Shown in pieces: positions 2,123 through 47,969 of a stretch of 64,000 nt of DNA; position 1 is the stretch's first letter, and every line of letters starts with the position of its first letter. The stretch lies in assembly GCA_949825045.1 (NCBI GenBank), contig OX463832.1:19958552-20022551 (forward strand). Direction: 5' to 3'. Origin of the DNA: Argyresthia goedartella (taxonomy: Eukaryota > Arthropoda > Insecta > Lepidoptera > Argyresthiidae). Made by a program: the position numbers and the translations under genes. The notes beneath the pieces were generated by a model that saw only the letters and a program-made list of their open reading frames with translations, made no database searches and was not told where the DNA came from.

Positions 2123-2224
2123 CTAGGTTTGTAGATTTTGTTCGTTCTTCAGCTCCAAAGCCCACACGTGCTGGGGCCAGCCGGTCCTGCCTTTGCTCCT
2201 TTTGTTATCTGTCGCCGACTGTAC
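2123..2224 (-). CDS. hand: hand exon 6 (C-terminal signature and stop)
   Basis: The acceptor is CTGTCCGTCCACAG (AG at 2225-2226). There are 33 codons then TAG at 2123-2125. It encodes [10 protein letters not shown] then [16 protein letters not shown], the conserved Hand C-terminus, and ends NEQNLQT. Phase 0 matches exon 5. No AATAAA or ATTAAA on the minus strand is seen in the first ~1.5 kb after the stop, so the 3' UTR is long, uses a variant signal, or is spliced. Confidence 0.95.
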   Translation of the reverse strand, partial: VQSATDNKRSKGRTGWPQHVWALELKNEQNLQT

Positions 2225-26200: not shown

Positions 26201-29200
26201 GAGCTAATAATTTTTACTGACATGCCCCAGAGATCCTCGGATTTTTTCAAATTTAATAACTTAAATTAATTAATTAAATTATGCCATAGGGCCACATATA
26301 TGCGAATGAGAAATTTTGATTGCACTTTTGAACATTGACTTTTAAAAATGATGCAGAAAGATCCGGAGACGAGTCTAAAGAAGCCGTAGTAACAATCGGA
26401 ATATTTGTAAAGAATTGTTCAAATGCGGCCGCGATGTCATCGTTAGAAGTTATTAGTTTATCTTCAATCTTAATAGCTACGGTCTCCTGATTTTGTTTTA
26501 CCTGCTTCTCTATTTATGATATTCCAAATTGTTTTACTTTTATTCGACGATGTAAGAATCTTCATTTTTATGTGTTCGCACTTAGCATTATGGCAGACGG
26601 CCCTAAATATTCTAATGCTCTAAGGCAGAACCTGAGACCTCTCCCTTGTGAGGCAAATACTATACAATGACACCATACCACACCTCTGTGGCGCTCGCTG
26701 CGGAGAGGTCACGGGTTCGATCCCCGGCTGGGGGTGAAAAAAAAGGTCAAGTGCGAGTCTAACTCGTACAATTATAGGGATGGTGTGGAGTGAATAGTTT
26801 GGTTTTACATAGCAAAATGTTATTTACAAAGTCATTGGTGCGGCTGCTTTCTGCATGTACCTAATCAGGTGTATTCATAAGTTTGTATGTGGTATTAAAA
26901 AGAATTGTTGTATCGGAGCCCCGTTAAATATTTATTTTATTGTTTTTTTGTATTCGTTGTTATAACTGCAACAGAAATACATCATCTGTGAAGATTTCAT
27001 CTGTTTAACTATCACGGTTCATGAGATACAGCCTGGTGACAGAAGGACGGACTGACATATTCCAAATTTTCCAAATTCCAAATGTCTTTATTACTGTAGA
27101 TATTTACATAAACTTAGCAACCGTAATGTTTTGCCATTCTCTACATTGGAACACTGTGGGAGTAGAAGGGCGTAGAAACTCCCACAGATTGATTATTAGA
27201 CCTCTTTTAAAAATTGCTTGTGCTTAACTAATACAAATATTGTAATATCATTATGATAATTAATAGCAGGAAAAAATAACACAGTAAAATTTTGGCGGAA
27301 GACACCAACACTGAATTAAAATCATTATTACCTGCGCACTACAGTCGCCATTCCTCCTCCTCGGAGGCGTATTATGCAGTTCAGCTCTAAACCCTCCTGC
27401 TGGTTCGTTGTCACTCTCTAACACCCGCATAAGGTAAGAGATGTAAGATGTGGCCAGTCGAAGAGTCTTTATCTGTGGACAAACGGTTAGTGTTGAAGAA
27501 AGGTTTGGTTAGAGGAATAAAAAACCTGACTGCCAAAAAGGAACAAACCTAGGTCCATGGAGTTATTAAGCAAAAAGATTCGTTTATCTGAGCCTAATAT
27601 ACGTCAAATATAATAACCAAAGAGGTATTATTTAAAGACTTCACTAATCTCACTAAAAACATATACTTAACCTTCTTGGTCTAACACTGAACTGTGGCGG
27701 GAAATCCAGCACTATGACAAAAAGAAAAACTAATGAATGAAAATGCTGCTATACTTTAAATTGAAAAACATTATTTTTTTTAAGGTTACGTACCTTAGGA
27801 CCCTGACACTAAGGTTCACCAGTCCATCAAATGGCTTATTTTATTGCAGACATTACTATTGGTTTACATTTTACCTAGGTTCCTTCCTTTTTGGCAAGGA
27901 GGCTTTTTATTACCTTGGACAGTTTGGTGTCAGCAGGTACGTTCGGAATGCGTTCCTTCAGGTCTGAGAACGCTGTATTTATACTCTGTGTCCGTCGACG
28001 TCCTCCGGTTGCTATGCTCTGTAATAAGGGCCGCAGCTCTATACTATATCTCAGAAATGTCTACAGATAGGTAGCTACTGCCGGCTAAGTTAACTTGGCA
28101 CCTGTAAGGAATGCGCTTCTTCTCCCTCTCTCGCTTGCCCTCGCCTTACGCGTCCGTAGGACAGTGCCGGACGCTATGACGTCATAAAAGCAAGACGCCA
28201 AGTTAACGTTCGCGGGTATTAAGTAGGTACTTGAAATCACACCTATTCCCGCATTTGCTCCCGCTTGGCAGGAAAAGAGTTTAATTCATCTGAGGTAAGA
28301 TTAAAAAATAAGTCACTTTCAAATACACTTGATACTGGCAAAATTAACCTCAAATGGAATTAATGGAAATTTACAATGATCCAGAAGAAATCCCGCGATC
28401 TCTACAGAAATTATTAAGAAAAAAATAAAACTTTAAAACAATTTATAACTTTATAATTAACACTATAGAAGAAAAAGAATTGAGAACATTGTAGACTCTA
28501 AAGCCAAATATGAAACCCCCTTCAGATGATCTTCAAAAGAAGATATTTAATAATGCTTTATAGAAAGCGAAATAAAATAAATTGAGGACATGGCCATGTG
28601 GCCCTGAAGATATTGGAAGATAAGATACATTTATGGAGACTATAGAAAGATGACATACAACAAACAAGGCGGTACAGCCTAGCACCGTAGCCTTTCCCTG
28701 AAGGGATAAATAAAGCCAAAAAATAATACCTCAAATGAGGTTAGGTTGCCATATATTACTTATAAGAAGAAGTAATTAAAAATTGACGAACTCAAACAGC
28801 CTCCAACTATCACCAGCGCCAGCAATAAATAAGCTTAATTTACATATTAGTTGCCATTGACGATTGTGATTGGTAAAACCTTTAAGCCTATAGGCATATC
28901 TGTCAAAGTCGACAAATCCTACTTCTACTACTTCTTCTTATAATATACGGCGTGCTAACCTCATTTGAGGATAATCTTGCCAGTGTCAAGTGCATTTGAA
29001 AGATCCCGTGACGTGTTTTGGAACTTATCGGGCGGGCATAGGTGTCATGTGAAAGGAATCGCAATATCTCACGAGATACAGTCTCGAGCTGCCAATTTGA
29101 TAATAACACACGTATAATAGACAATAGTAGACTGGTAACCAAGCTGGAAAGTGATCCATTTCACCTGAGATATTTCTAATTATCGACATTTCGTCAATAG

Positions 29201-32200
29201 TTCGAGGGTGAAATGGGTCACTTTCACCCGAGTTAAACACTCTGGGTCACACCACAAAAAAAAACGCCTGTTCAACACATGTTTAAAAACAAAAATGTTA
29301 TAGGATTTGACGTTTGTTTTGAGGTTAAACTATGTGTAACATTTTTTATAGTAACACGGTCTACTTTTTAATTCGAATGTGAGGAAAACACATTTTCCGA
29401 AAGGGACTTGACGTTTTTAGCAGATCTCCAGTTCATGAAATGGTTGTATGCCATAAGATATCTCTCCTTAGAGCACTGCGGTAATTTTATTACCCTTAGA
29501 TTGTTAACAACAGTATTTGCCTGCTATTTTATCACATCGGGAGTTAAATCAATGACCATGGGTGTTACCACAATCTTTTCAAAAAAATCCCCAGGTCTTG
29601 GATGTTTATATGTGTGTGACGTCGCTGTTTCTGGTACCCACGACACAGGGTATCCTAGTGTGGTGCCAGAAGCAATGTATGTGCCTGTATGTAAATGTTT
29701 CAAATGTTTCAAAAATGTTTCAAATGTTTTCCCGGTTCAAATTACGTTCAAAACAAGAACATCACCATGGCAACCATTTACATTCCAATTCGCCATAATG
29801 GGCTTTATTTACCTATTAACAATACTTGTTTTAAGACGGTCACGGTAATTTTGCAGGCTAAATTAGGTTCCTATTTGAATCGGCATAAGATGTTGTGGTA
29901 ACTCCCCATGTCACTGGAATCGCTTTCCGAAACCATTTTTAACCAAAAAAAGACACGGTATGTATATTTAATCTCGTGTTCCCGCTTTTTCTATTGCAAA
30001 CTTTCATTGTTTTTTTTACGCAATTTGATTCTGAAAAAAAGTTTAAATACACATACTTACTGCCAACATTATAAAAGTTTTAAAAACGTATCCATTGGTT
30101 TCAGTTTTGATTTTTAATAATATGACGCATCTCGATTATCAGTAAATCCGTGGCCAATCGAAAAATAAAAATTTACACCCTAGGGATGGAAAAGCAATGT
30201 TCCATGAAACTTATGAAAATTAAACTTTCCCAACAGGAGAGATGAAATAGTACATTTCGTAAGAGTTCGCAAAGGCGAACGCATTTACGAACCGAGAAGA
30301 TTACGGCACAAGCCAAAGGCGTGGGTCGTAGCGAGGTTCTTAAAGCAGCCTTTTTGAACGAGTTAAGAATATAATGTCTGTATTGAGAACCCATAATCGA
30401 AGGTGCTATTTTGAGGTTAGAAGGCGGAAAATAATAGAACGTATAATACAAGTGTGCAAAGTTGGTTGTTACGAACGAGGCGGTATTCGCGCGAGCCCTC
30501 GGCGGGCGCGATAAGGTAGCCGAGTGTTTAATGACCAATGCACACGCGTTTTTTTTTGAAGCTTTTGAACACAGTTGCGAGGAAAAAAACCTTTTCATAA
30601 TAATTTTAAATTAACCACACAACGAAAAGGTCAACAAATATTTATATGTTGGACATATTAAAATAAAGTTTACAACGGCTCACACTGCACAACATGGCTG
30701 TTAAGTCAGTCGAAAGATTAATTCAATTAAAAATTCAATTAGAATTGCGAAAATTTAGTGTTTTTCATTAATTTCTTCAGAACCACTAATTATTTCTTAA
30801 TTTAAAAGACATAGTTTTAAGATATTTAGAATTCATATTTTTTGTCGCAAGAATCATATCAATATTAGTTTTAGATCTTAAGAAATAGTAAGTTTTAGGT
30901 AAAAAGCATCTATTAAGTTTTTTTTAATTAAACACATGTCTTCATAAGTTTTATATACATACATATATACATATATACATATATTTTTTCGGAATTTGCA
31001 AAGTGTCTCCTTAGGAGGAAAGACGCTAATGAACAACCCAGCGTCTTCCCAAGCGAAAACACCCTCGCTACACTCGAGAGTTAAATCGGTGGTCCTTCGC
31101 TACGTCCGGGGAATCTCACTTCGCATTTTAGGCACGTTTGCCGGCGCGCCTCCCCGCGCAGGCGTATCAATAGGTACCGGACCGGCTTGCACCCTAGCCG
31201 CGCGTGGGATGTCAGAGTAAAAGATGCTCTCGGGCGTAGTGATGCGGTGCAATCTAGCTCGCACGGACGGGGAACCGATTCTGAAGGTGATCTGGAGCTC
31301 TCTTTTTGAATCGCTCGCATGACTTTTATGTCACGCGAGCGCTCTTGTCTACTGATTTTCCTTCGACATCCGAAATTTCGTATTTTTCAGTCATTCGCCT
31401 GCAACAAGTGGTCAGCACCACTCGTTGCTGGAGGCCATTAATACTCGAGAGTGGGAAACGAGCCGAAGGCGAGTTTCATAATAATATCACTCGAGAGTTT
31501 TAATGCCTAATTATGTACAGTTACATACACTAGTTTATCTACACACATATCATAAGCTCTCTTTGATGTGTGTGGCATTGTGGCATTGAGTTGTTTAGCT
31601 TGTTCTGTTGTACCAACTTCACAGACAAAGTAGGGGCTTTATTTATGTACCGCGCCACGCAGGCGGGCGTCGGCGTTCGAAATTTGAATGTCATAATATG
31701 TAGAAAATTTACACATTATGGTCATAATGTTCAATATTCAGTAGTTTAACATTATGCTGATCGTAACGTGAGGTTTTTGGACGCAAGTAGAGAGTTTATG
31801 ATACGTGTGTAGATAAAACTATTAACAGCGAGTTCTGTGTTGAGTTCGATTATTCCCAATGAAACTTGCTGTTGCTGTTGGCAATGTTTAACAATAATAA
31901 CATAAAATAACATAGCGTCACGCCTTTTCCCATACGGGGTGTCAGAGGCACAATTCTGCCCACTTTGAGCCAGTTATTTAATAGTCCATTTTGCGTGACG
32001 AGGGCTCATCGGTGTGGTGGCAAGGAAATGGAGATAATCTTCGCCATTGCATAAGTTTTGAACCATAATCAAAGGCATTGGGGCCATACCACAAAAAACT
32101 AAACTACTGTTCAACACTCATTTAAAAACAAAAGTGTACGGGATTTGATGTTTGTTTTGAGGTTAAACGCTGTTTAGTATTGTTGTGGTAAAACGGAAGT

Positions 32201-35200
32201 TTATAGTGTACCTTAGATAGTTTAGTGTCAGCGGGCACGTTCGGTATACACTCCCGAAGGTCCGAGAAAGCCGTGTTGATGCTCTGTGTGCGTCGTCTGA
32301 AATCATACAAAGTTTGATTCCAAATCTATAATAACATTTATCTACACACGTATCGTAAACCCTCTTTACTGCGTACAAAAACCGCACGTTACGATCTGCA
32401 TAATGTTAAAACTACTTGGTAAAAAACTAAAAACTCATTTCTTATCTGAAAAATTACACTTTATGACCATAATGTGTAATTTTTCTACATATTATGATAT
32501 TCAAATTTCGAACGCCGACGTCCGCCTGCGTGCCGCCCCTACTTTGTTTGTGAAGTTGGTACTACTGAACAAGCTAAACAAGTGCAAAGGAGTTATCAAT
32601 GCCACCACGCCGGTCGAACATGCGGTTCCTGAACACATTAAAGGGAGCTTATGATATATGTGTAGATAAACTAGTGTATGTAACTGTACATAATTAGGCA
32701 TTAAAACTCTCGAGTGATATTATTATGAAACTCGCCTTCGGCTCGTTTCATAAACCCACTCTCGAGTCTTAATGCCCTCCATAGTCAGTCACATAAACTA
32801 CTATTACACTTTGGATCGCTCAAGGAAACATATCATATACACATATATATCGCCCAAAAGGGCAAATTGCAGGCAGAAAGCCTTCAGCATATACCGAGGC
32901 CATGGCTCACAGTAAAGTCTTAGACAGATAACTGTACACACAAAGGGTTTGTTTTTAGTCCGTATACCACACGAGCTGATGCCCGCTCAATATGTGGGGA
33001 CCCGGTCATAGCAAGGAGGTCTGACTCCTGGGCATGCGTAACTTCATTTTTTCCCCTCCAACAAAAAAATAAATGAAGATCACACAGCGAAATTTTCGTT
33101 GATATTTGAATCATGATTTAAGAGCTCCGTGATCTAATGGGTTTCACGCTTGCTTCTCACACAACATGCAGGTTCGATTCCTGACCATGTGCCAATGAGT
33201 AAATTAATTTATCTCAAGTACTTTATCGAACATTAACGGCCGGTTTCCTGGGCGCTGGTTAAGTTAACAAATTGGTTAAACTGATTTCAGCCAATCACGT
33301 GCCGCTATTTTGAATATTAGCGGCACGTGATTGGCTCAATTCAGTTCAACCTATTTGTTAACTTAATCAGCGCCCAGGAAACTGGCAGTCAGTGTTTCAG
33401 ATGACACGTTAAGCTGTAGGTCCCGGCTACTATCGATACGTGGTAGTGGTCGTAACATCCCTCCACCGACCCGCACTGAACCAGGGTCATGGGCTGCATT
33501 TATTATTGAATCATAAATCACTAGGGAAGGGATATTGAGACACGTCTCTTGTACGGGGACCCCTTTAGTGTATAAAATATCGTGTATTCCATGATTTTTT
33601 GCTGTTGCGGTAACAGAAATACACATTCTGTTAAAATGTCGACTCTCTACCTGCTTCGGTTCCTAAGATACAGCTCTCTGACGGACAGACAGACGGAGAG
33701 ATAGACTGTTTAATATTTATGCTTCGGAACGCACCTCTTTTTGTTGCGCGACTCGGACCGCGAGTGATCGTAAACGGAACTAGCAGCTGTCACTTGTATA
33801 GAAACGAGATGACGAGTTAGAGGTTACTTTATTGCACATGGCATTCGGGCCTCGGCTGTATTTTATTGTAATAATTCTCTAACACAGGTGTCGGGCCTGG
33901 TCGGAGTGTTAATTATAATAATCGTCGGGAATAAGTAGATTCACGTCATCGGAGTGAGTGCTTCGTGTTGTGGAAGGTTAATGTGATTCGGGGATCAATT
34001 CGTCGCATTCGGACAGCGACCCTTTGTGTCGGCAAGCAACACGACGGCGACAGCATCGGGCTACGACGAGAGTAAGATTCGACTCCTCTCCCCTCACCCC
34101 CCGTGTGCTCCTTATCCCGTATTCCTGTCTCGAATTGAGCTTTCGAATTTCGGTCCACGGCGTCAAAGGTCAGTACCCCTGGTGAAAACCAACCCTACCA
34201 GATTCCACGCCCGTTCGGTTGAGGCGTGGAATTTAACATTTTGGTAGCAGGCGCGGTTTCCTAGTAGGAAATCGATTCACGGACGGTTGTAGGGTTGTTT
34301 TTTTGCCACATTGTAGTTGGGAGAAAAGGGTATCTCGGATTGGTCGGCAATCAGTTTGTGAGAGAGTCGAGTGGTCGGTATACCACAATTTAGGTTCATT
34401 TTCGGTTAGTGAACGTATAATTGACGATTTAGTTAACAATTATTATAAATTTGTAGTCGGAAACTACTCGGTGTGCATAAGAAACAGTCATTCGGTCGGA
34501 CTATAGTATTGCAGTCGGGTTCCATAGCATTGCAGTGTTATTTCAGATTACAGAGCAGGGTCAGGCTATTTAAGGGGTATTAAGCTGATTTTGCTGACCT
34601 CAGTAGAAGTGTGGGTCATATCGGAGGGGCCACTTCTAGAAGGTTCACAGCTACCTTCATTATATTAAAATAGCCTTTTTTCTTATAATAAATTTTTGTG
34701 TGTTATTTTTTATTGTGCCTTATGGTGGCATTCTCTAATTGATTTAGAGTGTATAGTTATAAGGTGTATGTCCACAGGGCGACCATATTAAATATTGTTT
34801 AGGATTTAATTGTTTTTAGTGGTTGCCTTAGTTTTGACAACTTAGTTTTAATTTCTGTGCCCAGCGCTGACGGGCAAGTGCTGGTCTCTGGCTATACTTA
34901 GTTCGGTAGTGAAGTATAAGACCAGAATCTATTAAATCGGTCAAAATGGCACCTTCGCCCTTGACGGTACTGCGACATGGTGTCCGGGAGGAAATGAGAT
35001 GGCTCGCCCATACTCATAAGTATGTGGAGCGACCTGACATGGGCGATTTCCTGCTCAAGCGTGTGGAGGACGCAATGACACGCGTCGGGAAGGTGTGTCG
35101 GCTGGCTGCGGAGGCTGAAGCTCTCGGGCTTACGGATGAAGCCTCGGTGGCTGCAGTGAAACAGCTCTGCGCGGATGCTGACCAAGCGATGGAATGCTTG

Positions 35201-41660: not shown

Positions 41661-44200
41661 ACACACACACACAAACACACTAAGAAAATAAAGCGCCCCG
41701 GACCATAGCTTGGCTGAGCTAATAAATAAATTAACATAATATTTACCTACAGGCAAATACATTGCTTCTGGCCCCACACTACGATATCCTGTGTCGTGAG
41801 AACCAGAAACAGCGACGTCACATACATATAAACATCTAAGACCTGTTTTTTTTTCTACCCCCAGCCGGGGATCGAACCCGGGACCTCTCGCAAGGTAGGA
41901 AGAGACTTAAAGTTTCACGATTCAAGAAAAATAAATGTATGACAAATCAGGCGACGCTTTCAAAATTTTTTTACGATATTGCGGACGGTAACTTTAAAAT
42001 ATTGTAATGTTCTCCCACCTCTCTTTCTTATTGGCCGTGTTCCTCCGCTTGACGACTCGTATGAACGAGGTGCCGACTGGTCGGTCGTACGGACGGAGGG
42101 TCTGAAGCTCGCACTCTACGCCTGTAGAAGTGAGGAGCGAATGAATGAGTGCTTGAGTAAGTCTGTGAGTCGTTTTACGACTCTTATGAACGGGGAGCCA
42201 ACTGGTCGGTCGTACGGACGGAGGGTCTGAAGCTCGAACTGTACACCTGTGGAAGTGAGTGAGCGAGTGAAAGAGAGCTTGAGTAAGCCTGTGAGTCGTT
42301 TGACTACTCGTATGAACCAGGTGCCAACTGGTCGGTCGTACGGACGGAGGTCCTGAAGCTTGAACTGTACACCTGTGGAAGTGAGTGAGCGAGTGAAAGA
42401 GAGCTTGAGTAAGCCTGTGAGTCGTTTGACTACTCGTATGAACGAGGTGCCAACTGGTCGGTCGTACGGACGAAGGTCCTGAAGCTCGAACTGTACACCT
42501 GTGGAAGTGAGTGAGCGAGTGAAAGAGAGCTTGAGTAAGCCTGTGAGTCGTTTTATGACTCTTATGAACGGGGAGCCAACTGGTCGGTCGTACGGACGGA
42601 GGGTCTGAAGCTCGCACTCTACACCTGTGGAAGTGAGCGAGCGAGTGAAAGAGAGCTTGAGTAAGTCTGTGAGTCGTCTGACGACTCGTATGAACGGGGT
42701 GCCAACTGGTCGGTCGTACGGACGGAGGGTCTGAAGCTCGAACTGTACACCTGTGGAAGTGAGTGAGCGAGTGAATGAGTGCTTGAGTAAGTCTGTGAGT
42801 CGTTTGACTACTCGTATGAACGGGGAGCCAACTGGTCGGTCGTACGGACGGAGGGTCTGAAGGTAGCACATTTAGAAAATGTTGACAATTTTTTACGAAA
42901 GATATTAGGTTTTTATCACCACTCATTCATTCAGCTAGAATTTATTTCAGACTTACGATTACCTAATTATGAACCTTACCCATATTGTTTTGTGTGTAGC
43001 CATGGATGCCATTCTGCTGGTGGTACCCGTCGTATGGTTCATTGCCAGTTATCTGCATGTCATCGTAAGCTAAAAAAAAGTAAAAACTGAAGCTTCAAAT
43101 GATCAAAACAAACAGTATGCCTCTGTATAGCTTAGTAAATAAGTGGTCACAAGTGGTCTAGTAGGAATAGTCGAAAACATAATGTTTTTCGGAATTTTGT
43201 TGGGACTATTTAGGAGACATATTACTAAAAGTCCTGACCCCTCCGAAGTGAGCCCCAGGGGGCGGGGGGGGGGGCGAAAGGGAAGGTCCCGTTGTTGGGA
43301 TTTTTGGTTACATCTCGAAAACGACAAAATTTAATGAAAGTAATGTAATGTTGTGATGAAAACGATAGGTAATTGGTTGAAAGTGTATAGAATCAAAGTT
43401 GCTTCGAGCTTCAGCTTTTTCAGCTTCCATTACGTAGTAAAGTCAAAGTCAAAGTACTTTATTTACATATACTTAGCAAACGTCAATTTTGTCTCTTCTC
43501 TACATTGGACCACTGTGGGAGAAGACAACAAATAAAACAAAGTTCCCTAAGACGCGTCGTTTTCAAGATGTAAGCAAAAATTGAAAAACTGGACGTTCAT
43601 TGTGCTACCTGCCCTAGGGCTCCTGATATTGTGACCTTACAATATGCCACAAAGTTTACATGGCTCCTCGCTCTGATGACGTCACAGCGTCGACGGCGAG
43701 AGCGAGCGAGAGAGGGAGGAGAAGAGCATTCCTCAAATCAATCAAATAATGCACTTTTACAAGTCAAACACTTACTTAAGTCTCATATTTATGGAAAAAG
43801 AAACTCCATGAACTCTACCAGTGCTTCGGAAATATGACCTTCAGAGAAGATAGCACCAAGAAACTCTACGGGGATGTTTTTTTTATTATTTTCGTCATTT
43901 TTTTACACAATGTTATAACATCGTATCCATAAGTGCCAATAAGATGTCTCAAAATAACAATCTAACAAAATAAATAAATAAGAACAAAGACGAGCTGTAA
44001 TGAACATAACTTATGAGAAACCCGACTGGACCAGTCCTTTGAACTCGCTGGTGCCAAGTTTACTTTGGGAGGCAGTACAAGAAGAGCATTGTTATTTACT
44101 GACCGAAGCTCCTTCCTATGTAGTGGCTGGTGTCGTGGTATATGTCCTGCGGCTCGTAGTCCTGTTGTTCCGCCGACCCGTGCCAGTACAAAGCTTCCAT
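2123..44200 (-). CDS. hand: Hand-family bHLH transcription factor, whole gene span (six coding exons)
   Basis: Joined CDS on the minus strand: 44104-44200, 42980-43069, 42019-42121, 32212-32296, 27332-27472, 2123-2224. The lengths 97+90+103+85+141+102 give 618 nt, 205 residues plus stop. Every junction has GT/AG and every split codon completes correctly. Domains: Tyr/Gln-rich N-terminus (1-63), bHLH about 88-143 with basic region [13 protein letters not shown] and the E-box-contacting Glu96, helix 2 starting [15 protein letters not shown], a GGFRAEL stretch after it, and the Hand C-terminal signature [14 protein letters not shown] (184-197). Known of the family: Hand proteins are nuclear, dimerise with E proteins such as Daughterless, bind E-boxes and act in heart, blood-cell and visceral-muscle development. 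Length is close to that of other Hand proteins. Introns rule out a processed copy. The family assignment rests on recognised motifs, not on a search. Confidence 0.93.
2227..3390. other. 3' end of hand intron 5, no gene
   Basis: Holds a GC-rich patch (2300-2480) and an ~80-bp segment (2823-2903, GATGTCAGAGTAAAA... to ...ACCGATTCTG) repeated at 31207-31284. No coding signal is recognised. Confidence 0.5.
3391..3646. mobile_element. Fold-back MITE, ~256 bp
   Basis: Left end TACTGGGTGACATTTAATTA and right end, reversed, TACTGGATGACATTTAATTA: one mismatch in 20. Inner inverted segments (GAACAACT..., AAACATATGGTCG...) extend the stem. A related partial piece lies near 49835-49890. Confidence 0.8.
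3655..4020 (+). repeat. Rep-3 long variant
   Basis: About 360 bp shared in the same order with 63100-63460: TCTCGTTAGTTTACAAACTA, GGTTTAAACTTGAATTGCAA, the GGGGGCGAGCGCAGCGAAGC core, and an end at TCTTACGGTGACATATAT. Confidence 0.7.
4299..4412 (-). repeat. SINE-C 3' part
   Basis: AGCGTCACGCCTTTTACCAT through GCAGCCCATCGCCGCAAC, the end opposite the tRNA-like head in complete SINE-C copies (20466, 62356). Confidence 0.75.
4455..4966 (-). repeat. MITE-1, partial plus near-complete copy
   Basis: A short piece of the terminal region (4455-4500) is followed, after an ATT microsatellite near 4567-4592, by a minus-strand copy 4592-4966 ending CAGCTGTCACATAAACTACT-like. Confidence 0.75.
4967..6528. 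other. Intron 5 DNA, nothing recognised
   Basis: AT-rich, no motif-bearing frame on either strand. The longest frames here (79 codons or fewer) lack any recognisable domain. Confidence 0.5.
6529..6780 (-). mobile_element. SINE-A, full copy
   Basis: On the minus strand: tRNA-like head (TGGCCGAGTCGGCAGTAACC, GGTTCGAGTCCCGGTGGGGG), a ~170-bp body, and a 3' tail of (ATT)n repeats. The head has an RNA polymerase III B box, GGTTCGAGTCC. Confidence 0.85.
6848..7065 (-). mobile_element. SINE-B, full copy
   Basis: tRNA-like head (CACCTCTGTGGCACAGCGGC, B box GGTTCGATCCC) and body (CTTGGATGTTTGTATGTGTG... to ...AGAAGCAATGTATATGCCTG). Confidence 0.8.
7262..7387 (+). repeat. Rep-3, internally deleted copy
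   Basis: AAACTGCACATCAAAAATAC... then TATCCTTCGTGTTAGGTTGA; the GGTGAGCGAAGC core is missing. Confidence 0.7.
7388..7757 (-). repeat. MITE-1 copy
   Basis: Starts TATCTACACACGTATCATAA, includes the palindrome ACATTATGACCATAATGTGT, and ends at AACTGTACATAATTAGGCAT; the outer hairpin module is absent. Confidence 0.8.
7755..8344 (-). pseudogene. LINE 3' end with C-terminal RT-associated region
   Basis: The minus-strand frame 7997-8344 encodes [20 protein letters not shown]... to ...[14 protein letters not shown], the C-terminal tail of a Jockey/CR1-like element. The same tail appears at 24795-25226 and 55709-56050. The 3' end has a run of (AATCAAA)-like tail repeats at 7755-7785. The RT core is absent, so the copy is 5'-truncated. 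Confidence 0.75.
8571..8750. repeat. 84-bp tandem duplication
   Basis: CAACGTTATGAAGTGAT begins at 8571 and 8655, and a third partial unit begins at 8739 (CAACGTTATA). Units are about 85% alike by eye. 84 is a multiple of 3, which explains an 81-codon open frame on the minus strand. Confidence 0.8.
9080..9490 (+). pseudogene. LINE (R1/I-like) C-terminal fragment, frameshifted
   Basis: Encodes ...[17 protein letters not shown], then after one frameshift near 9250 [20 protein letters not shown] and [13 protein letters not shown], stop 9442-9444. The CxC...H...C pattern after WxxLNRLRTG is typical of the C-terminal zinc-like region of non-LTR elements. It is followed by an AATAAATAAG 3' end. 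Confidence 0.7.
9491..10115. other. Intron 5 DNA with unrecognised 116-codon frame
   Basis: The plus frame 9574-9924 starts at an ATG and is preceded by a pyrimidine tract and AG, but shows no domain or repeat. I do not regard it as a gene. Confidence 0.3.
10116..10361 (-). pseudogene. LINE RT C-terminal fragment
   Basis: [20 protein letters not shown] and [11 protein letters not shown] match the MSYGILLWG...FILQKRAVR motif of the same Jockey/CR1-like elements as at 24795 and 55709. Confidence 0.65.
10362..10520 (-). repeat. MITE-1 hairpin module next to Rep-3 fragment
   Basis: 10362-10464 is the outer CTCGAG hairpin module alone; 10465-10520 is the TTGCTGATCCTTTTTTGCTG end of Rep-3. Confidence 0.7.
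10869..11273 (+). repeat. Rep-2, full-length copy
   Basis: Runs from GTCGAACTCGCGCACGAAGG to GGTACGGAACCCTAAAAA. It contains a (GACG)n stretch and the sentence-like conserved core GGTGTGGAGTGAATAGTTTG. Confidence 0.85.
11508..11657 (+). mobile_element. SINE-A, 3'-truncated copy
   Basis: Head CGACCCGAATGGCCGAGTCG, B box GGTTCGAGTCC, body cut near 11655, and immediately followed by an inverted copy. Confidence 0.8.
11658..11890 (-). mobile_element. SINE-A, inverted partner copy
   Basis: Runs from ACACTATTTACACTCATTGA to the head reversed (ACTCGGCCATTCGG). It is tail-to-tail with the preceding copy. Confidence 0.8.
12322..12778 (-). repeat. MITE-1, full composite copy
   Basis: Both modules are present: terminal inverted repeats (TTTATCTACACACGTATCAT / reversed TTCATCTACACACATATCAT) and the CTCGAG hairpin (12685-12748). 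Confidence 0.85.
12811..12834. repeat. (TA)n microsatellite
   Basis: An uninterrupted run of TA dinucleotides. Confidence 0.9.
13130..13261 (+). repeat. Rep-3 copy
   Basis: TATTAAACTGCACATTAAGA to ACAACAAAAAATACTTAAAA; the core is internally deleted. Confidence 0.7.
13262..13798 (+). pseudogene. maT-type mariner transposase, 5'-truncated
   Basis: The frame 13334-13798 (ATG to TAA) encodes [20 protein letters not shown], then [28 protein letters not shown] and ends NRGGHFE. The second catalytic Asp (QQDSAPAH) and the third Asp (SPLDY) are separated by 37 residues. That is the DD37D spacing of maT elements, a Tc1/mariner branch known from moths. In-frame coding continues upstream ([11 protein letters not shown]) to about 13262, but the N-terminal DNA-binding domain and the first catalytic Asp region are not found, so it cannot be autonomous. 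An AATAAA-like 3' end follows the stop. Confidence 0.85.
13921..14000 (+). repeat. SINE-A 3' fragment
   Basis: Body only, GTCTAGTACCCAAGATACAG to AATAGTGTCC. Confidence 0.75.
14024..14385. repeat. Palindrome cluster (ATAACGTTAT and TAGCGCTA)
   Basis: Exact ATAACGTTAT occurs at 14027, 14043, 14097, 14108, 14250, 14297 and 14373. TAGCGCTA occurs at 14066, 14081 and 14309. One more near-match, TATAACGTTACA, lies at 14338. The block begins and ends with CATAACGTTAT, and flanking DNA lacks the motif. Confidence 0.85.
14386..15640. other. Intron 5 DNA, nothing identified
   Basis: Contains a GC-rich patch (14945-15060, CTACCCCGCCAG twice) and, at 15540-15640, a stretch resembling 54390-54480 (GTTGCTCTGATCAAATCGGT). 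Open frames here carry no motif. Confidence 0.5.
15648..16085 (+). repeat. Dispersed repeat shared with 58318-58740
   Basis: About 430 bp in the same order in both places: GGTCCCCGTTACTC, AGATTTTCAAGGAGAGTTTA, CACATTTTGAACGCAGTTCC, TCTTAATCAAATACTCA. The right part continues to CTTTCTGTTACACCCTGTAT, also seen at 54500. Confidence 0.75.
16341..16860 (-). repeat. Dispersed repeat with an unrecognised 150-codon frame
   Basis: The minus frame 16341-16793 is open for 150 codons ([20 protein letters not shown]) but matches no family I know. The segment recurs in shortened form at 43741-44035, where the frame is broken. Both copies end with the same AACATAACTTATG...ACTGGACCAGTCC. It could be a decayed transposon ORF or a captured exon. 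Confidence 0.5.
17019..17122. mobile_element. MITE-4 copy
   Basis: About 104 bp, left end TACCACAAAAG, conserved middle GTTTTGAGGTTAAACTATTT, right end TTTTTTGTAG (terminal bases changed). Confidence 0.7.
17130..17400 (+). repeat. Rep-3, near-complete copy
   Basis: ATTAAACTGCACATAAAAAT, core GGGTAAAGGGGGTGGCCAAG, end AAATCAGTATTTTTGCTATG. Confidence 0.75.
17405..18293 (+). repeat. Rep-2 variant interrupted by a LINE
   Basis: The head AAAACCGGCCAAGTGCGAGT at 17412 and the terminal GGTACGGAACCCTAAAAAA at 18275 bracket a LINE 3' end (about 17700-18222). A similar Rep-2 variant lies at 57295-57985. Confidence 0.6.
17700..18222 (+). pseudogene. LINE 3' end
   Basis: The end of the last frame, [20 protein letters not shown] then [11 protein letters not shown], stop 17959-17961, is the C-terminus of a Jockey/CR1-like ORF2. 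It is followed by a ~250-bp 3' UTR (CTCCCACAGTGGTCCAATGT) and a TTTGGAATTTGGAATTTTG tail. The same 3' UTR occurs reversed at 27058-27285 and 43439-43540. Confidence 0.75.
18372..18430 (+). repeat. Short repeat shared with 21463-21520
   Basis: GGCCATGTGGTTTCGTTA and the following TTTATCGCTC...CTGTTCG are in both places. Confidence 0.6.
18776..18970. mobile_element. MITE-4, two copies head-to-head
   Basis: A forward copy (18776-18876) is joined to an inverted one (18880-18970). CAAATCCCAT...AAACCTC arms make a ~190-bp inverted repeat. Confidence 0.75.
19240..19445 (+). repeat. Dispersed repeat related to 52250-52345
   Basis: GGGCCTTTACCGGATACAAG...GTAACATTAAGCC matches the 52270 segment. A downstream TTCGAACCGGCATCTCCTGT looks like a reversed tRNA-like box. 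Confidence 0.5.
19521..20200 (+). pseudogene. ORF1-like (Gag-like) protein of a non-LTR element, frameshifted
   Basis: The frame 19521-20147 is Arg/Pro-rich at first, then [20 protein letters not shown] and [20 protein letters not shown], ending [11 protein letters not shown] shift of frame near 19955 continues the domain as [35 protein letters not shown], stop about 20088. This is the RNA-binding ORF1 type found in insect LINEs. It is followed within ~80 bp by an ATT-repeat tail, with no reverse transcriptase between, so it is an ORF1-only derivative. Confidence 0.65.
20466..20738 (-). mobile_element. SINE-C, full copy
   Basis: Minus strand: CTCCGTGGTCTAATGGGTAT, B-box-like GGTTCGATTCC, body with GATGGAAAACATCGTGAGGA, end AAAAGGCTTGACGCTATAT. 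A 22-bp part of the head is duplicated at 20739-20760. Confidence 0.8.
21087..21332 (-). mobile_element. SINE-A, full copy
   Basis: (ATT)n tail at 21080-21095, body, then tRNA-like head ending GACCCGAATAGCCGAGTCGG. Confidence 0.85.
21530..21660 (+). repeat. Rep-3 fragment
   Basis: GGGTAAAGGCGGTGAGCGAA, TATCCTTCGTGTTAGGTTGA. Confidence 0.65.
22090..22770. repeat. 34-bp tandem array (about 19 units)
   Basis: The unit reads CCACATGAGAAATATCGAGG GTAACATCAGTGAG; starts at 22121, 22155, 22189 and 22223 show exact 34-bp spacing. Many neighbours alternate GAGCCACATG and GAACCACATG, giving a 68-bp dimer. Some units carry CACGTG. Confidence 0.9.
22771..23689. other. Intron 5 DNA, nothing identified
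   Basis: AT-rich, then a GC-richer patch at 23270-23470 without a recognisable frame. Confidence 0.45.
23690..24545 (+). pseudogene. LINE reverse transcriptase relic
   Basis: Traces of RT motifs in order: [20 protein letters not shown] (23937-23990), [20 protein letters not shown] (about 24085), [13 protein letters not shown] (about 24270) and [12 protein letters not shown] (about 24360). Stops and shifts break the frame, e.g. in KNRQ*Y near 24217. Jockey-type. Confidence 0.75.
24708..24755 (+). repeat. SINE-C 3' fragment
   Basis: GTGCCTCTGCCACATCGTAT...GCGTGTCGCTA, followed by a (GTCAA)n run at 24766-24790. Confidence 0.6.
24790..26600 (-). pseudogene. LINE, long decayed copy with RT domain
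   Basis: Minus strand, 5' to 3': [20 protein letters not shown] (26500-26570), [15 protein letters not shown] (about 25830), [20 protein letters not shown] and [12 protein letters not shown] (25548-25700), then [20 protein letters not shown] and [31 protein letters not shown] (24795-25226). FADD is the RT catalytic box. Several frame breaks are present. Jockey/CR1-like, same family as 7755, 10116 and 55435. Confidence 0.8.
26680..26740 (+). repeat. SINE-B head fragment
   Basis: ACACCTCTGTGGCGCTCGC, GGGTTCGATCCCCGGCTGGG, joined directly to Rep-2. Confidence 0.7.
26741..27057 (+). repeat. Rep-2, 3' end cut by a LINE
   Basis: GGTCAAGTGCGAGTCTAACT to GCCTGGTGACAGAAGGACGG, then interrupted by the LINE 3' end at 27058. 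Confidence 0.8.
27058..27285 (-). repeat. LINE 3' UTR
   Basis: ATTCCAAATTTTCCAAATTC tail repeats, then the reverse of the 3' UTR seen at 17962-18222. It ends about 45 bp before hand exon 5. Confidence 0.75.
27332..27472 (-). CDS. hand: hand exon 5 (helix 2 of bHLH)
   Basis: The acceptor is CCGTTTGTCCACAG (AG at 27473-27474) and the donor CAG|GTAATA at 27331. The exon is 47 codons in phase 0 on both sides. It starts [15 protein letters not shown], a typical Hand helix 2, continues RVLESDNEP and then AGGFRAEL, a stretch also typical of Hand proteins, and ends in an Arg-rich piece ([12 protein letters not shown]). It can be joined to either 4a or 4b because both end in phase 0. The intron to 4b is 441 nt; the intron to exon 6 is about 25.1 kb. 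Confidence 0.95.
27914..28016 (-). CDS. hand: hand exon 4b, duplicate bHLH core exon
   Basis: The 28 codons at 27914-27997 align without gaps to exon 4a and end at the same place with the donor AAG|GTAATA. The protein differs at two positions only (Arg to Lys and Cys to Arg; [18 protein letters not shown]), while 15 further codons differ by synonymous change. That pattern indicates old duplication under purifying selection. The acceptor is unclear: no AG lies at the position homologous to 4a. The nearest AG in phase with exon 3 is TTACAGAG, starting the exon at 28016 and adding SIATGG before the RRRTQ motif. A better-looking CAG two bases upstream is out of phase. It may be a mutually exclusive exon, an exon needing another partner, or one whose acceptor has decayed. 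The 5' limit given is the in-phase option. Confidence 0.8.
28087..28208. mobile_element. Small MITE, ~120 bp
   Basis: Terminal inverted repeats AGTTAACTTGGC / GCCAAGTTAACG. It lies just upstream of exon 4b on the minus strand. Confidence 0.55.
28728..28972. mobile_element. MITE with ~45-bp terminal inverted repeats
   Basis: Left CCTCAAATGAGGTTAGGTTG...AAGAAGAAGTA and right TACTTCTTCTTATAATATAC...CCTCATTTGAGG pair over about 45 bp. Each end starts with the palindrome CCTCAAATGAGG or CCTCATTTGAGG. Confidence 0.8.
29250..29355. mobile_element. MITE-4 copy
   Basis: ACCACAAAAAAAAACGCCTG, GTTTTGAGGTTAAACTATGT, TTTTTTATAGTAA. Confidence 0.75.
29588..29700 (+). repeat. SINE-B body fragment
   Basis: CCAGGTCTTGGATGTTTATA to AGCAATGTATGTGCCTGTAT, followed by a short GTTTCAAAT repeat (29692-29730). 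Confidence 0.7.
29731..31206. other. Intron between exons 4a and 4b, no gene supported
   Basis: Includes a 141-codon minus frame (30173-30598) in sequence that shares a motif with 1797-1834, so it is probably a repeat. An (ATACAT)n run lies near 30955-30985. Confidence 0.4.
31207..31284 (+). repeat. Copy of the 2823-2903 segment
   Basis: GATGTCAGAGTAAAAGATGC, GTGATGCGGTGCAATCTAGC, ACCGATTCTG. Confidence 0.65.
31432..31822 (+). repeat. MITE-1 copy
   Basis: Hairpin module (ATTAATACTCGAGAGTGGG) plus inverted-repeat module ending TTATGATACGTGTGTAGATA. Confidence 0.8.
31914..32015 (-). repeat. SINE-C 3' part
   Basis: ATAGCGTCACGCCTTTTCCC to GCGTGACGAGGGCTCATCGG. Confidence 0.7.
32087..32190. 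mobile_element. MITE-4, best-preserved copy
   Basis: Ends TACCACAAAAAACT and ATTGTTGTGGTA pair as terminal inverted repeats over 104 bp. It lies in the hand intron about 22 nt past the exon 4a donor. Confidence 0.8.
32212..32296 (-). CDS. hand: hand exon 4a (bHLH core)
   Basis: The acceptor is TATGATTTCAG (AG at 32297-32298) and the donor AAG|GTACAC. The exon is A + 28 codons, encoding [18 protein letters not shown] then [10 protein letters not shown]: end of basic region, helix 1 and loop. Residues [15 protein letters not shown] match the form known for vertebrate Hand proteins. Phases fit exon 3 (AG|A) and exon 5 (phase 0) exactly. The exon sits between two MITEs: a MITE-1 copy begins about 38 nt upstream of the acceptor (32337) and a MITE-4 copy ends about 22 nt past the donor (32190). 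Confidence 0.95.
32337..32808 (-). repeat. MITE-1, full composite copy
   Basis: TTTATCTACACACGTATCGT to AGTCACATAAACTACTATTA, both modules present. It begins about 38 nt upstream of the exon 4a acceptor. Confidence 0.85.
32847..33117 (-). repeat. Dispersed repeat, inverted relative to 45731-46008
   Basis: Shared in reverse order: GCCCAAAAGGGCAAATTGCA, CAGCATATACCGAGGCCATG, CTCAATATGTGGGGACC, ATCACACAGCGAAATTTTCG. No ORF or inverted ends; class unknown. Confidence 0.7.
33122..33240 (+). mobile_element. SINE-C, head half
   Basis: GAGCTCCGTGATCTAATGGG, GCAGGTTCGATTCCTGACCA, then cut at the fold-back element. Confidence 0.75.
33240..33386. mobile_element. Fold-back element, ~146 bp
   Basis: CCGGTTTCCTGGGCGCTGGT pairs with ATCAGCGCCCAGGAAACTGG at the other end. 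The stem runs nearly the full length to a loop at TTTTGAATATTA; it contains CACGTG in both arms. Confidence 0.85.
33590..33706 (+). repeat. Rep-2, left part split by the BEL/Pao element
   Basis: GCTGTTGCGGTAACAGAAAT to ACGGACAGACAGACGGAGAG; it resumes at 41229. Confidence 0.8.
33702..33706 (+). other. Target site duplication, left
   Basis: TAGAC, identical to 41224-41228 on the other side of the element. A five-base duplication fits BEL/Pao integration. Confidence 0.85.
33707..34238 (+). repeat. 5' LTR (532 bp)
   Basis: Begins TGTTTAATATTTATGC and ends GGAATTTAACA. Compared with the 3' LTR I count 9 substitutions, one 12-nt indel and one 1-nt indel. Confidence 0.93.
34242..34258 (+). other. 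Primer binding site (putative)
   Basis: TGGTAGCAGGCGCGGTT begins three bases after the LTR and starts with TGG, complementary to the CCA end of a tRNA. Which tRNA is not determined. Confidence 0.6.
34946..36261 (+). pseudogene. gag of the BEL/Pao element, frameshifted
   Basis: ATG at 34946. The first part (to ~35440) contains [19 protein letters not shown], the DUF1759-like capsid motif of Pao Gag. Near 35443 one base appears lost and a TAA lies in the following frame. From 35446 the frame continues with three zinc-knuckle-like groups: [14 protein letters not shown] (35956-35997), [13 protein letters not shown] and [13 protein letters not shown] (about 36058-36150). A TAA follows at 36259-36261. 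In family members Gag and Pol are usually one polyprotein, and here the same frame stays open beyond this stop. Confidence 0.88.
36262..36822 (+). other. Gag-protease linker with poly-C tract
   Basis: Open in the gag-pol frame except for TAG at 36775-36777. It holds an uninterrupted run of 26 C (36291-36316). The encoded linker is rich in Pro, Gly and Arg and matches no domain. Confidence 0.6.
36823..37440 (+). pseudogene. Aspartic protease of the BEL/Pao element
   Basis: 205 codons. [13 protein letters not shown] places the catalytic Asp at residue 24 (Asp-Ser-Gly), as in the DUF1758/A17-like protease of Pao elements; [13 protein letters not shown] is the flap-side motif. TAG at 37438-37440 interrupts the frame, which then continues open into the reverse transcriptase. 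Confidence 0.88.
37441..40647 (+). pseudogene. pol of the BEL/Pao element: reverse transcriptase, RNase H, integrase
   Basis: One frame throughout; ATG at 37570 starts a 935-codon run. Counting from it: RT box [11 protein letters not shown] with catalytic Asp181-Asp182, preceded by [13 protein letters not shown]; RNase H motifs [11 protein letters not shown] (Asp351) and [11 protein letters not shown] (Asp429); integrase zinc finger His660...CLPCYR (Cys695, Cys698); integrase core GTDFAGPF (Asp730), [10 protein letters not shown] (Asp796), [10 protein letters not shown] (Glu848). TAG at 40375-40377 and TAA at 40579-40581 interrupt the C-terminal part (...VGDLVLIKD...); the last stop is TAG 40645-40647. 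All catalytic residues are present; the stops and the upstream frameshift would prevent a full polyprotein. Confidence 0.93.
40679..41223 (+). repeat. 3' LTR (545 bp)
   Basis: TGTTTAATATTTATGC to GGAATTAATCA, with a 12-nt insertion ACTTGTGGTACT at about 41149 relative to the 5' LTR. Confidence 0.93.
41224..41293 (+). repeat. TAGAC duplication and right part of the split Rep-2
   Basis: TAGAC, then AGCGGAGGCTTAGTAGTAGG to GGTATGGAGCCCTAAAAAG, the expected end of Rep-2. Confidence 0.85.
41629..41677. repeat. (AC)n microsatellite
   Basis: CACACA run with a single ATAC interruption. Confidence 0.9.
41735..41897 (-). mobile_element. SINE-B copy, head truncated
   Basis: GGCAAATACATTGCTTCTGG, GATCGAACCCGGGACCTCTC. 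It ends ~120 bp from the hand exon 3 donor. Confidence 0.75.
42019..42121 (-). CDS. hand: hand exon 3 (start of bHLH basic region)
   Basis: The acceptor is CTCCTCACTTCTACAG, with AG at 42122-42123. The exon is GC + 33 codons + AG, and the donor is GTGGGAGA from 42018. It encodes VECELQ... to ...[13 protein letters not shown], the classic Hand lead-in to the DNA-binding basic region. The last two bases AG join A of exon 4a to make Arg97. The first ~70 nt of this exon, together with the acceptor and its pyrimidine tract, are the last monomer of a 126-bp tandem array running to 42864. The unique part of the exon begins at the [10 protein letters not shown] codons. Confidence 0.95.
42050..42864 (-). 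repeat. 126-bp minisatellite built from intron 2 / exon 3 junction
   Basis: There are about 6.5 tandem units. The shared motif TCGGTCGTAC starts at 42081, 42206, 42332, 42458, 42584, 42710 and 42836, so the spacing is 125 once and then 126 five times. Read on the minus strand, each full unit carries a pyrimidine-rich tract, CACTTCCACAG, and the first ~70 nt of hand exon 3. Five decoy acceptors would start exons at 42246, 42372, 42498, 42624 and 42750. Because 126 is divisible by 3 and the unit lacks stops in two frames, the array gives long minus-strand open frames (310 and 251 codons). These are a by-product of the repeat. The one-base deletion sits in the exon-proximal unit. Confidence 0.9.
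42980..43069 (-). CDS. hand: hand exon 2
   Basis: This 90-nt exon follows a strong acceptor (a run of T then AG at 43070-43071) and ends at a strong donor, GTAAGG, at 42979. Only one frame is open: two bases finishing the Ala codon, 29 codons (YDDMQITG... to ...TQNNM), then one G that joins GC of exon 3 to form Gly63. The composition (Tyr, Gln, Asn, Gly, His) fits the low-complexity, Tyr-rich N-terminal half of Hand proteins. Intron 1 downstream of exon 1 is about 1.03 kb and holds a LINE 3' end and a dispersed repeat. Confidence 0.85.
43439..43540 (-). repeat. LINE 3' end
   Basis: Tail AAAGTCAAAGTCAAAGTACT, then the reversed 3' UTR CTCTACATTGGACCACTGTG. It lies in hand intron 1. Confidence 0.7.
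43741..44035 (-). repeat. Dispersed repeat, shortened copy of 16341-16860
   Basis: AATAATGCACTTTTACAAGT, CTACCAGTGCTTCGGAAATA, AACATAACTTATGAGAAACC. It lies in intron 1, ~70 bp from the exon 1 donor. Confidence 0.7.
44104..44200 (-). CDS. hand: hand exon 1 (start codon exon)
   Basis: The exon begins with ATG at 44200-44198 and encodes 32 residues (MEALYWHG... to ...GRSF) plus one base. The donor is GTCAGTAA at 44103 downward. The last base G joins CT of exon 2 to give an Ala codon. Just upstream on the minus strand, TTTTCTGTTCAG (AG at 44209-44210) is a good 3' splice site, so this may be an internal exon with only an 8-nt 5' UTR piece and an unseen upstream leader exon. There is no in-frame alternative ATG. 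A MITE-1 copy begins at 44269, about 60 bp upstream. The N-terminus itself is not diagnostic; the assignment rests on matching phase and continuous frame with exons 2 and 3. Confidence 0.82.
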
Positions 44201-44268
44201 TGGCGAGCCTGAACAGAAAATGCGAAACTACTTAGATGGTATCGTTATTAAATACAGTGTGTCCCAAA

Positions 44269-47706: not shown

Positions 47707-47969
47707 ATTATACCTTGTGTCTAGTAGTGAGTGAATATGACGTGGGCTTTGATGTCAGAATAAATTATCAAGCCTAAGTTTTGTTGTTCTGTCAATGTGT
47801 TTCGTTGGTACCTTGTTGCGTATGCGGCTGGCAGTAGAAAGGAGGCTCGTATCTGTCAAACCCTTCGTCTGACGGCGACATAGAGCCATAACTGGACATT
47901 GCACTTCTATTCTGTGAACAAAATCGAAATTAAACATAGGTATCAATTAACATGTATTTTGAGGTTATG

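Follow-up and report, generated by a model that had tools for sequence, protein, structure and literature searches.

Tandem duplication of an exon inside a helix-loop-helix (HLH) motif has been described for the H2d exon of vertebrate COE/EBF (Daburon et al. 2008; PMC2394523). The model put forward in the parts of that report on which we draw starts from an asymmetric ancestral exon whose copies were first used either/or, until a shifted splice site produced a phase-0 cassette and both copies came to lie in one protein; in the same parts the authors described this two-step route, in 2008, as one that so far as they knew no one had proposed for any other protein (PMC2394523). Here we describe a pair of homologous exons, designated 4a and 4b, in the hand gene of Argyresthia goedartella (Lepidoptera: Argyresthiidae), the entire coding region of which lies on the minus strand of the window analysed, a stretch of 64,000 nucleotides (assembly GCA_949825045.1, contig OX463832.1, positions 19,958,552 to 20,022,551), with 4b transcribed before 4a. 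HAND is conserved and regulates the development of the heart and blood cells; across the insects and vertebrates compared, its helix-1 segment shows hardly any variation. We consider it probable, at about three chances in four, that 4a arose by tandem duplication of the helix-1 exon within a single hand gene and is used as an in-frame cassette after 4b.

Both exons lie where a sequence-only reading of the window had placed them (Table 1) and encode the shared 28-residue segment that it described. Its codon tally is also exact: among the 28 complete codons, 11 match exactly, 15 show synonymous differences and two change the residue (AAG Lys / CGG Arg and CGC Arg / TGT Cys). Silent sites are saturated and the protein is kept, again as proposed, with a proportion of synonymous differences (pS) of 0.78, from which the synonymous substitution rate (dS) is not computable, and a proportion of nonsynonymous differences (pN) of 0.04 (Nei-Gojobori, 84 nt). 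When the 19 differences were placed at random over the 84 nt without creating stops, 12.1 codons on average changed their residue, with a minimum of six, and none of 20,000 placements gave two or fewer residue changes. Judged from the sequence, the duplication is old and both copies have been constrained for most of the time since.

The DNA beside 4a (27476-27913 and 28061-29000) matches nothing beside 4b, which rules out a fresh segmental duplication; a retrocopy is ruled out by the lack of attached exon 3 or exon 5 sequence, and an exon with its own start codon by the lack of an ATG in the open frame at 27878-28060. A 94-nt direct repeat (29253-29346 and 32092-32184) belongs to a dispersed repeat that occurs in other places too. 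Two similar exons separated by 4.2 kb could also belong to two tandem hand genes or to a haplotype duplicated by the assembler. However, exons 1, 1b, 5 and 6 each have one good match in the window plus 120 kb flanks, no further hand-like exon was found among the best candidates in the genome, 19 of 84 nt differ between the copies and the DNA adjoining 4a is unlike that adjoining 4b; we therefore reject this explanation, which is practically without probability. In the scan of the 1.1-Gb assembly for helix-1 exons, in which the best candidates were scored (26/26), 4b and 4a were the only hand-like ones (94% and 78% identity to the query), and the remaining 20 of 22 matches comprised hand exon 5 (59%) and 19 other places at no more than 64% identity. 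The region looks like one hand locus, not two genes.

The splice phases of the two copies set the terms on which they could be used. The position in 4a homologous to the acceptor AG of 4b reads CG. Among the AGs that leave the frame open and lie no more than 200 nt upstream of the 4a core, the likeliest acceptor is TTATTACAG, 18 nt upstream and in phase 0. Its share of pyrimidines at -12 to -5 is 0.88, against 0.75 for the candidate at -60, 0.50 for the 4b acceptor and 0.25 for the place in 4a homologous to the latter. From this acceptor 4a is a symmetric, phase 0-0 copy of an exon whose ancestral form is asymmetric (4b, 85 nt, phase 2 to 0). Conceptual splicing in the order 3-4b-4a-5 with a 105-nt 4a stays open to the normal C-terminus and yields 272 aa; HAND without 4a has 237 residues, starts with MSSYGSMSPSDEGFDRYEPPFYCQ and is like lepidopteran HAND proteins at both ends. 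Joining exon 3 to 4a via TTATTACAG and on to exon 5 gives a stop after 130 residues. When both copies are skipped (3-5), a stop follows at 129 residues, so one helix-1 copy is needed and 4b is the fitting one.

Relatives were surveyed by three protein searches, of which the best 120 of 183, 1072 and 1348 matches were taken, and further cases may exist. The second search was limited to a length of 245 residues and returned many entries labelled isoform X2 plus one Danaus protein with an insert; the third used a 272-residue query containing 4a and returned long forms. The resulting sets are enriched by queries favouring such forms and show their existence, not their frequency. In all, 286 proteins (one of them a translation of the window) were assembled, and in the 272 that could be parsed loop and helix 2 are adjacent in 246 and separated by intervening residues in 26. 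Twenty-two of the latter are lepidopteran, from 21 species (Danaus twice), and contain a second helix-1 copy; the insert measures 29-34 residues, sits at the same point, consists of whole codons and ends just before IKTLRL. The other four are the beetle Leptinotarsa decemlineata (P0256), Eumeta (P0257) and two unnamed short proteins with other inserts (P0085 and P0086). At the protein level, relatives carry both exons, which the sequence-only reading had suggested seeking in related genomes.

Within the same matches, 72 proteins start with MSSYGS: 22 carry both copies, 48 carry 4b only (some being short partners of the 22, some unnamed), the Dendrolimus protein is broken and the caddisfly Arctopsyche has 4b only. 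In 12 of the 15 pairs compared, the long form without its insert is the same as the short form at every residue, so that skipping restores the ordinary protein; the inexact pairs are Manduca and Loxostege (2 residues off) and Plutella (1 in length), and the Bombyx pair sets mandarina against mori. In Pfam scans, each of five long forms, four from Lepidoptera and one from a beetle, showed two HLH stretches, and each of three short forms showed one. AlphaFold2 places helices at 125-146, 157-180 and 189-212 in the Plutella long form and at 122-143, 159-174 and 183-205 in that of Danaus. Many long forms are automatic models, and it might be argued that gene prediction joined a neutral exon copy to the gene and so created the long forms as artefacts. 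Yet in 21 species the insert occupies one and the same point and consists of whole codons, some of its helix-1 positions do not vary and its frame is open; a neutral copy would decay, and the chance that the long forms have this source is very slim.

The proteins of relatives also bear on whether 4a and 4b are mutually exclusive exons, one or the other being used per transcript to give two interchangeable bHLH (basic helix-loop-helix) variants. The exons are homologous, have equal donor phase and are both conserved, and an in-frame junction with exon 3 is available through an AG that precedes the 4a core by 16 nt. Against this, the homologous acceptor has no AG, the main acceptor leads to a stop after exon 3, and 4a stands in place of 4b in none of the 72 MSSYGS-start proteins among the matches, 22 of which contain both. 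Mutually exclusive exons should each be in frame with the same neighbours, which is not the case at TTATTACAG and would be allowed by weaker AGs at 16, 43 and 49 nt; nor should both ever enter one mRNA, and 22 proteins contain both, an observation made at the protein level and in relatives only. Mutual exclusion therefore appears highly improbable. The sequence-only reading had taken 4a and 4b for functional, ancient alternative exons from which one gene could make two DNA-binding variants. Their age, the purifying selection and the presence of both in relatives stand; that they replace each other does not, and the two interchangeable variants give way to an ordinary HAND and a longer form into which a second helix 1 is inserted. 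By its conservation 4a is best regarded as functional, as an old cassette and not a swap.

Over the 21 proteins and the window, mean identity is 95% for 4b, 96% for the first 34 residues of exon 5 and 71% for 4a. Twelve of the 28 positions of 4a are invariant (R2, N7, A9, F10, L13, I17, P18, V20, D23, T24, K25 and K28) and position 6 is always I or V; the invariant positions fall mainly in helix 1 and the loop, with R2 alone fixed on the basic side. All 22 copies of 4b have cysteine at position 16, where 21 of 22 4a copies have Arg or His. The glutamate preceding the RRR motif, which aligns with the TWIST1 glutamate in 8osb and in bHLH proteins contacts the E-box, is found in all 22 copies of 4b and in four of the 22 of 4a, the window 4a having glycine. 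The window 4a is the most 4b-like among the 4a copies compared, with 26 of 28 residues. This last value bears on the idea that 4a of this species is a recently disabled remnant of an ancestral cassette, no longer spliced in. On the basic side it reads SIATGG, which sets it apart from the 21 other proteins, its acceptor tract is mediocre, and two relatives have apparently lost or broken 4a; but it has an open frame, a donor and an acceptor, and agreement with 4b at 26 of 28 residues despite saturated silent sites would soon fade without selection. A disabled remnant is accordingly improbable, if less so than mutual exclusion.

Several points weigh against the cassette. The long-form proteins are largely gene models, and Bombyx cluster P0248 alone among the 22 also lists an 'lgn' source, which we take to be assembled sequencing reads. 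Nor is the cassette universal: the extra segment of Dendrolimus kikuchii P0255 is frame-broken and that of Eumeta japonica P0257 has no likeness to helix 1, both possibly losses or poor gene models. The phase of 4a in relatives is deduced from whole-codon inserts. The AlphaFold2 models are weak (mean predicted local distance difference test, pLDDT, 53; predicted template modelling score, pTM, 0.19-0.20) and do not show which of the two helix-1 copies packs on helix 2; a Foldseek search of the PDB with the P0234 model (mean pLDDT 53) returned no matches, as expected at such confidence. At -20 to -5 the pyrimidine share of TTATTACAG is 0.62, equalled or surpassed by 24% of the minus-strand AGs of the window, so this site is not proven by sequence alone. 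The upstream end of 4a is not unique either, there being three open phase-0 acceptors, the others at 36 and 60 nt (exon start 28036 or 28060). Exon 3 can be joined to 4a in frame at the three weaker AGs mentioned above, the nearest only 2 nt beyond TTATTACAG, and exon 2 at 2, 11 and 38 nt, which would drop most of the basic region; a 3-4a-5 swap via the weaker-looking AGs seems unlikely. Finally, a tree built from 29 aligned columns of 60 exon segments neither supports nor rejects a single origin of 4a (approximately unbiased, AU, test, p 0.17).

Over 29 residues the window 4b does not differ from the single copy in HAND of the caddisfly Arctopsyche and the flea Ctenocephalides, so the ancestral form is preserved in 4b. 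Among the matches the only HAND protein of a caddisfly, that of Arctopsyche, has no insert, and the presence of 4a from Plutella to butterflies suggests that it was copied early in Lepidoptera. In the beetle Leptinotarsa decemlineata, isoform X1 (P0256) carries a second helix-1 copy before helix 2, and the short form X2 (P0188) is also listed; this copy looks independent, because it has the INNAY motif found in the ordinary exon of this species and other beetles. A further protein, P0094 (unnamed, 120 aa), is a beetle-like HAND fragment in which helix 1 and loop are unusually altered (INNAYFCLRECIPFVAKDTKLSK) and the rest is ordinary. For an ant, the bHLH motif of hand is given as one uninterrupted coding segment (PMC3527142), so the introns framing exon 4 are not common to all insects.

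How the cassette may have arisen follows from the phases. A raw duplicate of the 85-nt exon could only have served as an either/or exon, and 4a would have become a cassette once the upstream phase-0 acceptor replaced the old one; the order of events, duplication and then acceptor shift, we infer from the present exons. In the long product of conceptual splicing, the basic region is followed by the first helix 1 and its loop, then by a remnant basic region with helix 1' and loop', and last by helix 2; the two helix-1 copies may compete for this single helix 2. Pairing by helix 1' would displace the true basic region and give a dimer that holds a partner, for example Daughterless, and binds DNA poorly or differently; we propose this altered binding because helix 1' mostly lacks the E-box glutamate. 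Splicing of 4a would in that event tune down or redirect HAND. If helix 1 pairs instead, the insert would act as a long loop with an extra interaction surface. That the long form is a brake on HAND or its partners is a tentative proposal, to which we give somewhat less than an even chance, and the glutamate kept in 4a of Plutella, Colias, Tuta and Chilo is contrary to such a brake in all species. A long-loop adaptor is rather unlikely, and what remains falls to an insert of no major effect. Taken as a whole, a bHLH splice switch in which competing helix-1 copies make a partner-titrating HAND, reached by a second, independent COE-type two-step route and evolved in the same design independently in Leptinotarsa, is a speculative possibility.

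The remaining exons of hand are collected in Table 1. Membership of HAND (bHLH group A) is indicated by features of the basic region and helix 2 that are present in the window gene, and the conserved C-terminus of HAND is found at 2135-2194 (20 of 20 query residues); these features are seen in the alignments.

Table 1. Coding exons of hand and the duplicated core in the window (a slash marks the splice point)
Feature	Position	Strand	Remarks
hand exon 1, coding part from ATG (MSSYGSMSPSDEGFDRYEPPFYCQPHTQQ)	47812..47899	minus	donor phase 1; 24/24 residues equal to the lepidopteran consensus start
hand exon 1b (SPMEALYW...YIGRSF)	44104..44208	minus	phase 1 to phase 1
hand exon 2	42980..43069	minus	phase 1 to phase 1
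hand exon 3	42019..42121	minus	ends in basic region plus AG of a split Arg codon; donor phase 2
hand exon 4b, end of basic region, helix 1 and loop	32212..32296	minus	85 nt; acceptor phase 2 (ATTTCAG/A CGA), donor phase 0; regular exon
hand exon 4a, second helix-1/loop copy	27914..28018	minus	105 nt if acceptor is TTATTACAG/AGC (phase 0); donor AAG/GTAATA (phase 0)
exon 4a core homologous to 4b	27914-28000	minus	
hand exon 5, helix 2 and downstream	27332..27472	minus	phase 0
hand exon 6, C-terminus and stop	2123..2224	minus	

Repeats are found in several of the introns. A 126-bp unit repeated 6.5 times (92% matches; 42049-42862, minus strand) runs from intron 2 into exon 3 and includes the acceptor and the start of exon 3, so that extra, functional-looking acceptors and partial copies of exon 3 lie just upstream. 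Exon 4b is flanked by inverted copies of a dispersed repeat family (31455-31785 and 32370-32749), with arms of 117 nt at 97%, 87 nt at 91%, 47 nt at 94% and 41 nt at 93% and further family copies in the window; these could pair in the transcript to form a hairpin that encloses 4b. A Pao-type LTR (long terminal repeat) retrotransposon (33704-40975, plus strand) lies in the intron that separates exon 3 from 4b; it is an element whose 978-codon frame matches Peptidase_A17 and integrase and whose terminal 300-nt direct repeats are 98% identical, which suggests a recent insertion. A palindrome with 79-nt arms at 89% and a 10-nt loop lies at 33229-33396, and a 34-bp tandem repeat of 19.3 copies at 22093-22746 in the last hand intron. 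Elsewhere, two pairs of bHLH loci, G000:C23:6984351/6999061 (15 kb apart) and G000:C13:4698185/4600375 (98 kb apart), have identical or near-identical scores and equal frame lengths, and are either tandem genes or unmerged haplotypes.

The sequence-only reading knew of no such exon pair described for hand. A published account of the pair or of the insert was likewise not found in the literature searched, most subscription papers being outside its reach, and as far as that literature goes the pair is new as a described feature; its products, though, are already in protein databases, many labelled isoform X1 or X2, and are thus known as unexplained isoform labels. The lepidopteran HAND isoforms X1 and X2 represent the same gene, the same insert point and the same exon pair as the window, and whereas they are labels only, the window adds the anatomy of the DNA: the phases, the lost acceptor and the saturated silent sites.

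Like mutually exclusive tandem exons, 4a and 4b are homologous neighbours derived from a duplication; unlike them, they are joined in one protein, and the phase of the main acceptor forbids a swap. A second parallel is offered by Id and extramacrochaetae (emc), HLH inhibitors that dimerise and do not bind DNA. Long HAND would resemble them in presenting a predicted HLH surface without an intact adjoining basic region; the glutamate is lost in 18 of 22 copies of 4a. It would differ in being a splice form of a factor whose own basic region and helix 1 are retained. If moths and butterflies keep an optional second helix 1 in HAND, a bHLH factor would be regulated in an unexpected manner.

The closest precedent remains the H2d exon of COE/EBF, as far as it is presented in the parts of the report drawn on here. 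In both cases a duplicated asymmetric exon within the HLH motif would have turned into a phase-0 cassette. In COE/EBF the exon concerns helix 2, the donor was moved, the lineage is that of vertebrates and inclusion is compulsory, whereas in hand the exon covers helix 1 and the loop, the acceptor would have moved, the lineage is Lepidoptera and both forms coexist. Exon 4a of hand would be a second case in which the conversion of a duplicated asymmetric exon into a cassette, through the shift of one splice site, can be followed in detail.

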